Shown here in pieces: positions 1 to 61,185 of a stretch of DNA of 64,000 bases. The first letter of the stretch is position 1, and each line of letters starts with the position of its first letter. The position numbers were made by a program, and so were the translations under genes. The DNA comes from Atriophallophorus winterbourni (taxonomy: Eukaryota; Platyhelminthes; Trematoda; Plagiorchiida; Microphallidae): assembly GCA_013407085.1 (NCBI GenBank), contig JACCGJ010000691.1:1-64000 (forward strand). The letters are read 5' to 3'. The notes beneath the pieces are model-generated. The model made no database searches. It saw only the letters and a list, made by a program, of their open reading frames with translations, and was not told where the DNA came from.

Positions 1-115
1 CTGTTTCAAAGCTCACTGAAACCTAATCTTACTGTCTCCATCTGATGAGGCAAAAAAGCCAGAAACCGGTAGTGGTGTGTAAGGCGGGGGTGAGCAAACA
101 TTACTTTCCACATAG
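1..115 (+). repeat. Retrozyme-like repeat, partial monomer
   Basis: This is a partial copy of the dispersed 241-bp family also found at 10937-11320, 12490-12756 and 38755-38938. It runs from the segment before the ribozyme (a CTCACTGAAACCTAATC-like stretch) through the hammerhead core into the downstream part that normally reads TGAGCAACACATTAC. The left side is cut by the window edge. No ORF is expected; the family looks non-coding. Confidence 0.7.
36..77 (+). ncRNA. Hammerhead ribozyme motif (type I, minimal)
   Basis: The core CTGATGA lies at 42-48 and GAAA at 62-65. Stem II is GGC/GCC (49-51 with 58-60) closed by an A-rich loop, with one extra A before GAAA. CCGGTA follows at 66-71, giving a GUA cleavage triplet. 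Stem I is 36-41 with 72-77 and has one T.G wobble and one mismatch. The core is intact but the stems are weaker than in the copies at 12594 and 49543, so activity is uncertain. Confidence 0.6.
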
Positions 116-9787: not shown

Positions 9788-10040
9788 GGGCTTCAGGTAT
9801 CAAACCGCTGGAAGAAACTACAGGAGCAATGCTGAAATTCCCAGAGCCTACCGGCTTTATGGACTAGTACAATTCTACCGTCGTTGCATCCCGCAATGTG
9901 CACGGGTCTCACAGCTATTAAGCGATCTGCTCCGTGGTAACGCGAAGTCGTTAATTTTAACGGAAGAATCCAAATCACTGTTCACATCGCTTAAGAAGCA
10001 CATCGCCGAGATCACATCCAGATCACATCCGGTACCTTGG
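9788..10040 (+). pseudogene. Ty3/gypsy-type pol fragment
   Basis: Two adjacent frames give SGIKPLEETTGAMLKFPEP and then YGLVQFYRRCIPQCARVSQL followed by LSDLLRGNAKS and LTEESKSLFTSLKKHIAE. This is the RT-to-RNase H connection of Ty3/gypsy elements (family pattern GIKP..V.AI..FP.P, F(L)G..NFYRRFIP, L..LL). A frameshift near 9848 separates the halves. No LTR, protease or integrase was recognised nearby, so it is a short relic. Confidence 0.65.
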
Positions 10041-10936
10041 TCTTGTCTTTGTCGGGCCTAGTGATCACTTTTCCTTTTTTTTCCGCAGATTAAGAAGTGC
10101 TCGTTTTTCATCTTGTGTGAGGTTACTCCTTTCTGGCTGTTGTTTCTTGTTGTTTCTTGATAATACTGGTTATACAGTTGGGTAATGCATCTGCCTGAGT
10201 ATCCGGTAGCTCAGTTAAGGTAGATTCTACGCATTGAATCATATCTTCAGGTTATAAAAACTTTGTACAAAGTGAGAAGTTTAAGTCTTTCTTCGGTCTA
10301 CGCAGGTATACGAGTAACGTAAAAAGGGGTAGAACGCTTCGATCCTTATTAACACACCTCAAGGATAAATCACCTTCAAGCTGCGTGACGAATTGCGCAT
10401 ATTAAATCAACCGCAAGGGTCGCTCGGGAGTATATAACGGGTAAACATCCAGAGAACTCAGTACTAGGATAAGTGAACACAAAAATCGAATCGTTAAGAA
10501 GCTACGCAATTTCAGCACTAGCTTAAAACGTGCTGGACACAGGTCGAAGTGTTTATGTTTATAACGTAAAAGTGATTTGACGACATCACGCTGAGGCGGT
10601 TGTTATCACAACAAAGGTTGGTAAGAATGCAGTCAATAATATGGATGGAGCTGATATCTCCACAATATGGCGTCCGGTTCTGCAGCGGATAAACATTAAC
10701 GTGACCCCTACTGTGCGCACCGAGTACGCAATCGAGCTAATCTCTCAGCAAATGTCATTCACACCTGTCAAGACTAAAACAATTGAGGGATTATACTGCA
10801 CGTAGGGGTGGTGGTGCGTCAGATGATATTGATCGCGCCTGTTTATCTTAACGAGCGCAGAATTCACCATGGACTGTGCAGTTCTTAAGCACCTAAGGAC
10901 TGGTCAGGTGAATGAACTCTAAGCTTGATCTCTAAA
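10041..10936. other. No recognisable gene
   Basis: No long ORF and no motif. A weak reading near 10600-10790 is open but unmatched. It could be further gypsy remnant but I cannot support that. Confidence 0.3.
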
Positions 10937-10968
10937 GTAATGTGTTGCTCACATCCCCTGAAATTACA

Positions 10969-11010
10969 CTCCACTACCGGTTTCTGGCTGTTTGCCGTCA
11001 TCAGATGAAG
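10969..11010 (-). ncRNA. Hammerhead ribozyme motif
   Basis: On the minus strand the core CTGATGA is 11004-10998, stem II is CGGC/GCCA with an AAACA loop, then GAAA, CCGGTA and stem I GTGGAG pairing with CTTCAT through wobbles. The first stem II pair is a C-A mismatch. Confidence 0.65.
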
Positions 11011-11182
11011 ACAGTAAGATTAGGTTCAGTGAGCCTTGAGTGCTTGACCACGAATCACTATGTGATTCTGTGTTTGAACATCGTGGTTCGTTGTACGAAT
11101 CCTATGCAGCAGTGGCATTCAAGTATAACCTTGTTTACCATTTATCCACTGTTTCAAGGCTCACTGAACCTAATCTCACTAT

Positions 11183-11224
11183 CTCCACCTGATGACAGCA
11201 AACAGCCGGAAACCGGTAGTGGAG
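11183..11224 (+). ncRNA. Hammerhead ribozyme motif
   Basis: Stem I CTCCAC (11183-11188) pairs fully with GTGGAG (11219-11224). The core CTGATGA is 11189-11195. Stem II is CAGC/GCCG with one mismatch around an AAACA loop, then GAAA, then CCGGTA with a GUA cleavage triplet. ACCGGT is self-complementary, so stem III could form between two molecules. Confidence 0.7.
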
Positions 11225-11320
11225 TGTAATTTCAGGGGATGTGAGCAACACATTACTTTGGTTATCCATAAGCGCCTTGAGTGCTTGAACACGAATCACT
11301 ATGTGATTCTGTGTTTGAAC

Positions 11321-12487
11321 AATCATAGTATTTTAATCCAGAAACTTGAATTGCACGAGATAACAGGAAAACTTCTTGCTTGGCTAGAAAACTATTTACG
11401 CGACAGGAGTGCCCAAGTCAGAGTTGACGGCGCCTTATCGAAATCATTTAAAATTACGAGCGGAGTGCCCCAGGGTTCGGTCCTCGGACCGATTTTGTTT
11501 TTGATCTACGCAAACGACATTCCCGAACGTGTTAAATGCAAGATTATGTTATTTGCAGACGATATAAAGCTTTGGAGAAGCATACGTACAAATGATGACT
11601 GTGAAACTTTGCAGAAAGATCTAAACACATTGCACGATTGGTCTCTGAGAAACAAACTACCCTTCAACTTCCAAAAGTGCAAGGTATTAAACATTGGAAA
11701 GACTGTGAATTACAACTACACTCTTGGGTCCCACCAACTAGTCTGGACAACTGAAGAGAAGGATTTGGGTGTTTGGACCAGTTCAAGTCTGAAGACTTCA
11801 CTGCAGTGCAAAGCGGCTTAAAAAAAGGCGTCACAAGTATTGGCGTTATTGAGACGAATTTTCGGCAGATTCTCCAATCAGTCGGTGTCCCGTATCATGA
11901 ACACCTATCTGAGACCAGCGATGGAGTACGTTGTTCAGGCTTGGTCACCCTGGATTCAGAAAGACATCAATCTTCTGCAGCGTATTTACCACCGAACCAC
12001 AAAGCTTGTACCCGGACTAGCTGCTAAACCATATGAAGAACGTTTGAGGAGTCTCAATCTTTTCGACTTTCGCTGTCGTCGACTAAGAGGTGACCTCATA
12101 CTGATGTACAATATTATGCACGTCCCTAACCATCCCTTGTCCAAACTTTTCACACGCTCGCCACCCCGTGCCAGTCGGAAACATGAACTTACAGTGCTTA
12201 TTCCCACTTCAAGACTGAACTGTCGAAGATATTCGTATGCTGTACGTGTAAGTTTCACATGGAACACCCTCCCATCTACTGTTACACACTCAGCCAACCT
12301 GGATATTTTTAAAGCTAATTTGGACAAATACTTGAGAGACAACCCAAATTTTGATACGATTTACACTACATGAGTTTTCCTGTTCTTCTTTTTTATTGTA
12401 TATACCTCATAACTCCATCCTATGGTTATTATTTAGCTAAATGCTTTTTAGATCATTACAACTTTGAATCACTTTGAAACACTTTGA
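11321..12487 (+). pseudogene. CR1-like RT (C-terminal two thirds), one nonsense codon
   Basis: Starting inside the RT (ILIQKLELHEITGKLLAWL) it carries motif B (TSGVPQGSVLGPILFLI), the catalytic LFADDIKLW, then the C-terminal region to TTX at 12373. A single in-frame TAA at 11819-11821 sits where other copies have Tyr (VYKKASQ). Otherwise the frame is open from 11321 to 12373. The 3'UTR ends in (CACTTTGAA)n at about 12460-12489. It is 5'-truncated and inserted into a retrozyme-like unit at 11320. Confidence 0.85.
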
Positions 12488-12489
12488 AA

Positions 12490-12756
12490 CATCGTAGTTA
12501 GTTGTACGAACCCTATGCAGCAGTGGCATTCAAGTATACACTTGTTTACCATTTATCCACTGTTTCAAGTCTCACTGAACCTAATCTTACTGTCTCCACC
12601 TGATGACGGCAAACAGCCAGAAACCGGTAGTGGAGTGTAATTTCAGGGGATGTGAGCAACACATTATTTTGGTCATCCATAAGCGCCTTGAGTTGTTAAC
12701 CACGAATCACTATGTGATTCTGTGTTTGAACATCGTGGTTCGTTGTACGAAACCTA
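12490..12756 (+). repeat. Retrozyme-like repeat, 1.1 head-to-tail monomers
   Basis: One full 241-bp unit runs from 12490 (CATCGTAGTTAGTTGTACGA) to 12730. The next unit begins at 12731 with CATCGTGGTTCGTTGTACGA and stops near 12756. More than one monomer in direct orientation is what is expected if the template was a concatemer or circle. A small palindrome ACGAATCAC/GTGATTC-like lies near 12704-12722. Confidence 0.8.
12594..12635 (+). ncRNA. Hammerhead ribozyme motif
   Basis: Stem I CTCCAC (12594-12599) with GTGGAG (12630-12635) is six Watson-Crick pairs. The core CTGATGA is 12600-12606. Stem II is CGGC/GCCA (outermost pair mismatched), loop AAACA, then GAAA and CCGGTA. It differs from the 11183 copy in stem II, and between them the intact CGGC/GCCG stem can be inferred. 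Confidence 0.75.
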
Positions 12757-12782
12757 AGCTTGATCTCTGTTCGTACTGCCAC

Positions 12783-12895
12783 CATTGGTCAGAGGAAGCT
12801 TCTGAGTCAGAAGCGAAACGTTACCAGTAAACTGCTCTCACTGATTCATTACAAACTTTCTGTTTTCATGATTGTCATTCCCCGATCGATCACGA
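12783..12895 (+). repeat. Penelope-like terminal repeat fragment (family B)
   Basis: It reads TTGGTCAGAGGAAGCTTCTG, then AGTCAGAAGCGAAACGTTACC, a CTGCTCTCACTGATTC-like block and the TTTTCATGATTG tail. The GCTTCTG/CAGAAGC hairpin is preserved but the CTGACGA box is changed to CAGAGGA. Confidence 0.6.
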
Positions 12896-13497
12896 ACATT
12901 TTCCACTACGTTTCAGGCTAATAACTACGTCACGAAATTCAACCATCAGGCAAAATATCGATCGATCAAGATGTGACTGCGAGGATTGTTATTTGTTGGA
13001 AAAGTGTTTAAAACAATATATAGTAGATTGTCCCAACTGGAAGAGGAGCTTGCACATGTGAAGAATTCTGTTGAGCCATTAATCAAGCCTAAAAGAATTT
13101 AAACTGAAAAAACCAATACGCTCAACCTTACCACCACCAAACCATGCTCCTGGAAAGAATGAATTTTCGCTACCCCATTCCCACCTTAACGGTAGAAGCT
13201 ATTTTAATTCTGCCAGTGTCTGATTTACTTGGAATAGTTTACGTTATATCGTTGCTCACTCCACTAGCTCGCAAGACTTTAAAACAAATTGGACTAGTTT
13301 TTATTGAATTATTCGTTTCCCGTAGGATATAGCTAAACTGTTGGAGTTTACTAAACACTTATATACTGCTTAATCTAATTCCTTATTTTCTTTTATACGC
13401 TAACATTTCAATTTTACCTTTCCATGGTTGTTGTTAAGCTTGTAGCATTTAGGCCATTGAAAATCTTGAATTTCCTTGAATTACTTTGAAACCACTC
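12896..13497 (+). mobile_element. CR1 deletion derivative: ORF1 piece joined to 3' end
   Basis: 12990-13150 is nearly the same as 3771-3935 (ORF1 coiled-coil region, LSQLEEELAHVK). It then jumps near 13155-13165 to the last part of the RT C-terminus (HSHLN-like, TWNSLR-like readings) and a 3'UTR ending TTGAATTTCCTTGAATTAC at about 13470-13490. All of the endonuclease and the RT catalytic domain is missing. It has the same architecture type as 3050-6287, with a larger deletion. Confidence 0.65.
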
Positions 13498-29086: not shown

Positions 29087-29371
29087 TCGATTGGAATATG
29101 TTTGGGACTGATCGTGTATTCATAATGCAAAGAAATTTCAGTGCAATCGGTTTGAGTAGTTTTTGGGTAACGTTTCACTTCTGACACAGAAGCTTCGTCA
29201 GACCAAGGGTGATAGTCAGGACAGGGAACATGATTAAGTAGAAGTCAACCCACCACCACTTATTTGACCTTACCGCTACACATCCTATAGTACGCCTACA
29301 GTGTGTCACGTCTCGTGTGGAAAATGGACCAAATAAGTGGTGGTAGGTTGACTACTACTTAATCATGTTCC
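29087..29371 (-). mobile_element. Penelope-like terminal repeat (family B), 13-bp target duplication
   Basis: The duplication CTGTCTCATGCAT is at 29074-29086 and 29372-29384. Read on the minus strand the element starts with 42-bp inverted arms (29330-29371 and 29225-29266, about two mismatches) around a 63-bp loop. It continues with CTATCACCCTTGGTCTGACG, the GCTTCTG..CAGAAGT hairpin, GAAACGTTACCC and the tail TCCCAAACATATTCCAATCG. It is the most complete family B copy here. An inverted 5' end and a hammerhead-like motif are features described for Penelope-like elements. Confidence 0.75.

Positions 29372-36440: not shown

Positions 36441-61185
<24,745 letters not shown>

Follow-up and report, generated by a model that had tools for sequence, protein, structure and literature searches.

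Short hammerhead repeats of Atriophallophorus winterbourni as candidate ORF-less retroelements inserted in the manner of Penelope-like elements

The 241-bp non-coding unit studied here is probably a retroelement without an ORF, which would be inserted by internal initiation of the kind used by Penelope-like elements (PLEs); judging from the sequences, we put the probability of this reading at roughly 0.6. The unit was found in positions 1 to 64,000 of contig JACCGJ010000691.1 (hereafter the window, 64,000 nucleotides), and genome-wide searches covered the 537-Mb assembly. The 3' ends of its copies are anchored and the 5' ends spread, and the copies show inversions, target duplications and multi-unit inserts. 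The hammerhead helices are kept between families of such repeats, and PLEs of the same genome also have anchored ends, located beyond a hammerhead-like motif.

The window insertion and its hammerheads

The initial annotation had described a non-coding unit of 241 bp with junctions at 11079 and 12731, and this was confirmed. The two complete units are 93.4% identical (Table 1), with GC contents of 0.436 and 0.423, the longest ATG frame in the unit read round twice is 92 aa long, and the unit junction TTTGAACATCGTGGTTCG is present exactly at 11073-11090 and 12725-12742, with no further match in the window at up to 3 mismatches (0.07 expected). A third junction, announced at about 38817, does exist but lies at 38808/38809; it is old and diverged (81% identity over u169-241 and 76% over u1-115, u denoting positions in the unit), and its match ends before a complete ribozyme core.

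What had been taken for two loci at 11079 and 12731 is a single insertion split by a LINE fragment. This fragment (11320-12489) follows ..TTTGAA, the CA being assignable to either side, its terminal ACTTTGAAAC repeats abut CATCGTAG, and its two flanks together make up the unit junction. The insertion as a whole is flanked by a perfect 15-bp target duplication, CTAAGCTTGATCTCT, for which 0.01 matches were expected in the window. Because the LINE flanks form a unit junction and CTAAGCTTGATCTCT frames the whole, the original order was therefore target, inverted u181-76, u196-241, two full units, about 21 nt and target, i.e. an array of 2.3 units that the LINE fragment broke at the unit junction. 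The LINE, which we take to be of a CR1/Jockey-like type, is explained as having probably entered the array later. For a LINE ORF of the window, the closest named proteins among the 120 listed are from Paragonimus westermani (54-57%) and Dicrocoelium dendriticum (41-45%). As the LINE splits the array, Tandem Repeats Finder did not report the expected 241-bp tandem array. Elsewhere in the window, an open frame of 335 aa (43285-44292, minus strand) matches DDE_Tnp_1_7 (E=3.8e-61) and presumably encodes a piggyBac-type transposase.

Table 1. Coordinates and strands of the repeat-related features in the window
Coordinates	Strand	Feature	Evidence
1..107	+	Family A fragment u71-181, core at 42; match ends at u181 (S1); the window edge may cut its start	
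10919..10933	+	Left target site duplication, 15 bp, CTAAGCTTGATCTCT	Exact match to 12754-12768
10934..11039	-	Inverted 5' piece of unit, u181 to u76, with the S1 anchor at its outer end	94-96% identity to units 1 and 2
11033..11078	+	3' part of preceding unit, u196-241	98% identity
11079..11319	+	Family A unit 1, complete, 241 bp	
11181..11226	+	Unit 1 minimal type I hammerhead, helix II with A.C mismatch; cut predicted after ..CCGGTA, 11218/11219	Pattern, co-fold
11320..12489	+	LINE fragment, C-terminal half of RT, tail of ACTTTGAAAC repeats	RVT_1 E=5e-16
12490..12730	+	Family A unit 2, complete, 241 bp	93.4% identity to unit 1
12592..12637	+	Unit 2 minimal type I hammerhead, with C.A at 10.1-11.1 like family A consensus	
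12731..12753	+	Third unit, first ~21 nt; 3' end of array	
12754..12768	+	Right target site duplication	Exact match to 10919-10933
38736..38921	+	Old diverged copy of a family A junction, u169-241 then u1-115	
49541..49586	+	Family B hammerhead, helices I and II fully paired, GUC cut site	
58420..58465	+	Family B-like hammerhead, GAAACCGATC variant	

Each unit carries one minimal type I hammerhead, as first annotated, with cores showing a paired helix I at 11189 and 12600; further cores in the window lie at 42, 11004 (minus strand), 49549 and 58428. The hammerhead models by which the motif had been expected to be recognised did not detect it, as the Rfam search gave none at the gathering score in the window and none at E<=10 in 10500-13200. 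The motif is therefore atypical and was for this reason assessed by pattern, genome count and co-folding. Its helix III is the loop-less palindrome ACCGGU, as in PLEs, and because of this the hammerhead should act as a dimer. A minimal hammerhead with a loop-less helix III that needs a second copy has been described for PLEs in PMC7761336, where Cervera and de la Pena 2014 and Lunse et al. 2017 are cited for the hammerheads of PLE pseudo-LTRs.

Four unconstrained co-folds were tried and judged by comparing dot-bracket strings. The double hammerhead was the minimum free energy (MFE) structure in two of them, 12600 with itself (-32.7 kcal/mol) and 49549 with itself (-33.7 kcal/mol), and the MFE structure of the monomer was not a hammerhead. 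Pairing of 11189 with 12600 gave no double hammerhead, as helices I formed and helices II and III of 11189 mis-paired, and 49549 with 58428 also folded otherwise. The consensus of family A (115 segments), to which the two units belong, has a C.A mismatch at the normally G-C 10.1-11.1 pair of helix II. A mismatch at this position is expected to reduce hammerhead cleavage, and it may thus weaken the cleavage predicted for family A. Among 64 strict cores, taken from loci in genome order and from the window (some overlapping loci being counted twice), the letters at 10.1/11.1 were GC in 28, CA in 28, UA in 3, CG in 2 and others in 3.

Hammerhead families in the genome

The core pattern CTGATGAN{8,18}GAAACCGG has 15,183 exact matches in the genome, compared to 3 for the reversed-pattern control. 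These repeats include at least three families, A (241 bp), B (~232 bp) and C (~308 bp). Family B is 79.5% identical to family A over u25-149, and family C, which has no BLAST match to family A, has solely a 36-nt hammerhead block in common with family B. The consensus helix I reads C-G, A-U, C-G, C-G, U-A, C-G in family A, C-G, A-U, U.G, C-G, C-G, C-G in family B and C-G, A-U, C-G, A-U, C-G, G-C in family C. For helix II, the consensus is C.A, G-C, G-C, C-G in family A, G-C, U-A, G-C, C-G in family B and G-C, C-G, G-C, G-C in family C. At several positions, pairing is kept among the families through two-sided changes.

Family C forms long head-to-tail arrays of ~307-bp units, with ~18 units on contig C14985; further arrays are found on C4214, C963, C11991, C1232 and C10329. 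The long arrays are candidates for circular RNA production. They also are what would be expected of an ordinary satellite-like repeat spread by recombination, with the hammerhead as a passenger, an explanation made very improbable by the border duplications and anchored 3' ends described below and by the two-sided helix changes between the families.

Ends of the insertions

The ends were analysed in 62 arrays with both ends in view, namely 15 loci selected as similar to unit 1, the window and 46 arrays of loci from L021 onward. Overlapping or duplicate loci (L001, L006, L011, L030, L043, L048 and L085) were excluded, as were clusters whose largest piece was <70 nt or <78% identical or that lay within 30 bp of the locus end. 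In this sample, where most loci were chosen via the hammerhead core (L088-L105 mainly for family-A-type cores), with a resulting bias toward 3' ends just downstream of the core, and where some family B copies (L025, L074) were scored as misses, the 3' end fell at u172-191 in 40 of the 62 arrays. This site, named S1, lies 31-50 nt past the predicted cut. The best 20-nt window of 3' ends accordingly holds 40, and in 2000 uniform simulations it held at most 17. A second site, S2, at u54-63, accounts for 8 of the 62 arrays, and the 46 arrays from L021 onward include 33 at S1 and 5 at S2. The distance between the two anchors is close to half a unit (~121 of 241 nt), and their sequences are not significantly similar (p 0.67). 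Of 19 family B cores, 11 have their end 42-46 nt beyond the cut; one of the others ends before this interval and 7 continue through it. Apparent constant overhangs of 50 nt were dropped after the loci were read, as they were judged to be an artefact of the search pad.

The 47 direct 5' ends are spread (12 in the best 20-nt window, p 0.02) and do not cluster at the predicted cut, within 3 nt of which only one of them lies. Their mild concentration at u72-89 of family A corresponds to inserts of ~100 bp, from about u83 to u181, and is possibly a stop of reverse transcription or a 5' end of the RNA. Raw genome counts of 20-mers with up to 2 mismatches, between which mutability may differ, agree with a core at u80-177 flanked by regions near 10,000: 17,323 for u80-99 and 19,208 for u158-177, compared to 10,186 for u52-71 (which straddles S2), 10,069 for u182-201 and 9,805 for u212-231. 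Another 20-mer, with 23,179 matches, also catches family B and was left out.

An inverted left piece is present in 15 of the 62 arrays; the left and right ends are at S2 and S1, respectively, in 7 of these and at S1 and S2 in 1, and 7 have one end elsewhere. Direct repeats of at least 9 bp border 20 of 79 clusters, with 1.05 expected. The 79 clusters were not de-duplicated, and the repeats of L069 and L070 are family B sequence, which gives a stricter count of 18/79; the 15-bp duplication of the window is absent from the count because the LINE splits the array.

The unit had initially been called retrozyme-like, which holds for its short non-coding sequence, type I hammerhead, head-to-tail junctions, dispersed copies and target duplications; its loop-less helix III is of the PLE type and not canonical. 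A canonical retrozyme cycle, in which every hammerhead would cleave itself, a host ligase would close 241-nt circles and these circles would template insertion, appears doubtful to us. Such a cycle, demonstrated in coral, mussel and axolotl (PMC7229834), would fit the inserts of >241 bp, found in 35 of the 62 arrays and in 19 of the 46 from L021 onward. However, transcripts of longer arrays also predict multi-unit inserts, and family A matches at ~243-bp spacing do occur in the genome. The cycle would also fit the greater likeness of units within arrays than between arrays (90.6% versus 86.9% identity). Rare-allele sharing, which was 0.114 within and 0.030 between arrays, was tried as a means to discriminate circles from concatemers and did not separate the two. 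The helix II mismatch of the family A consensus and the absence of a helix III loop argue against the cycle, and a strong self-paired fold is not clear (z = -2.59 for unit 1 and -0.53 for unit 2).

Less probable still, and in our opinion unlikely, is a SINE-like element that the LINEs abundant in the genome would move through a common 3' tail. RT fragments of LINEs occur frequently in the window, the inversions and the long target duplications are of a kind that LINEs are able to leave, and in one locus (L076) a LINE-like tail stands immediately before the element. The S1 end ..CATTACTTTG resembles the LINE end ..CATTACAACTTTG, but this likeness is not significant (p 0.35) and the family B ends are unlike those of the LINE (p 0.70); overall, no significant common sequence was found among the 3' ends of family A, family B, PLE and LINE (shuffle p 0.35-0.70). 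Moreover, there is no repeated tail after S1 among the copies listed, and the LINE in the window is accounted for by its probable later arrival in the array. As to a SINE head, ARAGORN found no tRNA in 10900-12800 and the two units have no B-box match; 5S and 7SL heads were covered by the Rfam scan only.

Proposed Penelope-like insertion and its relation to known systems

Some of the GIY-YIG matches in the genome are pieces in which the endonuclease is accompanied by a PLE-like RT. In a Pfam search of a PLE piece, the endonuclease scored 27.7 bits, over the cut-off, and the RT weakly, with 19.3 bits, under the cut-off. The RT piece has 150 scored matches, with open frames of up to 924 aa, and some PLE copies stand head-to-tail ~2531 bp apart, such as those on C6359 and C13126. 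At the PLE junction of L108, the motif CTGATGATGTCATCTAGCCTGATGACGAAACGTC comes after the endonuclease frame and falls within the N-terminal portion of the open frame that follows. It is hammerhead-like only, since it gives no clean double-hammerhead co-fold and contains an additional base ahead of helix II. The same extra base is found in a second hammerhead-like hairpin, CTGACGAAGCTTCTG..CAGAAGCGAAACG, which occurs with up to 3 mismatches at 12790-12820 (plus strand) and 29171-29201 (minus strand) of the window and has similar counterparts in L026, L054 and L058; these hairpins are possibly the ends of another PLE family. In four other loci (L053, L064, L065 and L066), PLE-like endonuclease frames in facing copies stand beside apparent Gypsy-type RT pieces, an arrangement that looks like an unusual composite.

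A single PLE 3' end, at query positions 276-289 in 39 of 39 non-self copies, was rejected, as the query element itself ends at 282 and bounds the alignments. Twenty of these 39 copies were then read and gave two ends: 6 of the 20 end 43 nt past the predicted cut and 14 end ~31 nt further (~74 nt), L119 and L127 having identical flanks and probably being one insertion. These two ends, seen in L109-L128, match the 'tail' signature reported for PLEs. In three PLE copies an inverted side piece reaches at least the 43-nt end. The main end of family A, 31-50 nt past the cut, matches this shorter PLE end.

The layout common to the repeats and the PLEs, with a hammerhead, some tens of nucleotides, a fixed end and an inverted partner, is best explained by target-primed reverse transcription of the PLE type. 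According to this preferred reading, the unit RNA would carry a dimer-type minimal hammerhead, and the template would be an RNA spanning more than one unit, either a concatemer or a circle copied through more than one full turn. The reverse transcriptase/endonuclease of a PLE would use this RNA and begin reverse transcription at the fixed internal site S1, ~41 nt 3' of the hammerhead cut, or alternatively at S2, half a unit away. The cDNA would extend upstream and halt at a variable 5' point, the other target strand would also prime in about a quarter of cases and thus leave the inverted left piece, and repair would produce target duplications of roughly 9-15 bp. We infer that the PLE protein acts, that dimers cleave and that cleavage supplies the template pool. 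The link to PLEs rests on layout, because the 3' ends of family A, family B, PLE and LINE share no significant sequence. Several observations stand against the preferred reading, namely that only 6 of the 20 PLE copies have the 43-nt end, that 8 of the 19 family B cores have their end outside 42-46 nt, that the family A consensus has the C.A mismatch, that two of the four co-folds gave another structure and that the 5' ends lie off the cut.

Family A resembles PLEs in its minimal type I hammerhead without a helix III loop, in its tandem or partial-tandem copies and in 3' ends that lie at fixed internal positions beyond the hammerhead; in contrast to PLEs, the units have no ORF for RT or GIY-YIG endonuclease, measure 232-241 bp in families A and B and have no significant 3'-end similarity to the PLE of the same genome. 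Like metazoan non-LTR retrozymes (PMC7229834), they are non-coding repeats of 150-450 bp with type I hammerheads, a GC content below 50% and target duplications of >4 bp. They differ from the invertebrate retrozymes by a hammerhead predicted to be of the dimer type, without a helix III hairpin for monomer cleavage; amphibian retrozyme hammerheads also require dimers (PMC7229834). Compared to metazoan retrozymes, insertion ends have been mapped for family A. PLEs have been proposed as helpers of retrozymes because of their coexistence, common hammerheads and tandem copies (PMC7229834).

In the anole Penelope element PAc (PMC11167929), the hammerhead motif straddles the ORF start and, as proposed for family A, stands beside internal start sites, two of them 30-40 nt apart, and both target strands are cut and extended. 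Its main start is 111-118 nt into the ORF, which corresponds to 85-92 nt past the cut at +26, compared to ~41 nt in family A, and PAc is autonomous, unlike family A. The optional 'tail' of 30-40 bp between the two start sites of the anole element is resembled by the two PLE ends ~31 nt apart found here. The Sm-alpha repeats of Schistosoma (PMC6155905, PMC4918200) are likewise short flatworm repeats with type I hammerheads; they carry a tRNA part, and none was found in family A. The literature cited already describes metazoan retrozymes that form circular RNAs, the hammerheads of PLEs, as well as dispersed minimal hammerheads. What is new is the presence of three families in a single genome, together with the evidence from insertion ends; a literature search that took in few subscription papers found no earlier report of such a link between hammerhead and insertion end.

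The question addressed by the insertion-end data is that of the machinery that mobilises animal hammerhead repeats. Thousands of copies, sampled ends that keep a set distance to the hammerhead and co-resident PLEs with ends of the same kind provide a direct and testable link, and they raise the possibility that, besides circle formation, the location of the hammerhead with respect to the priming site plays a role. More tentatively, the dimer-type hammerhead and the next ~40 nt might be a portable module, able to turn any RNA into a substrate for internal initiation of the Penelope type. If so, families A, B and C, which outside the hammerhead are related distantly or not at all, would each have acquired this module and would be ORF-less parasites of PLEs, and animal hammerhead repeats would gain their missing mobilising enzyme.
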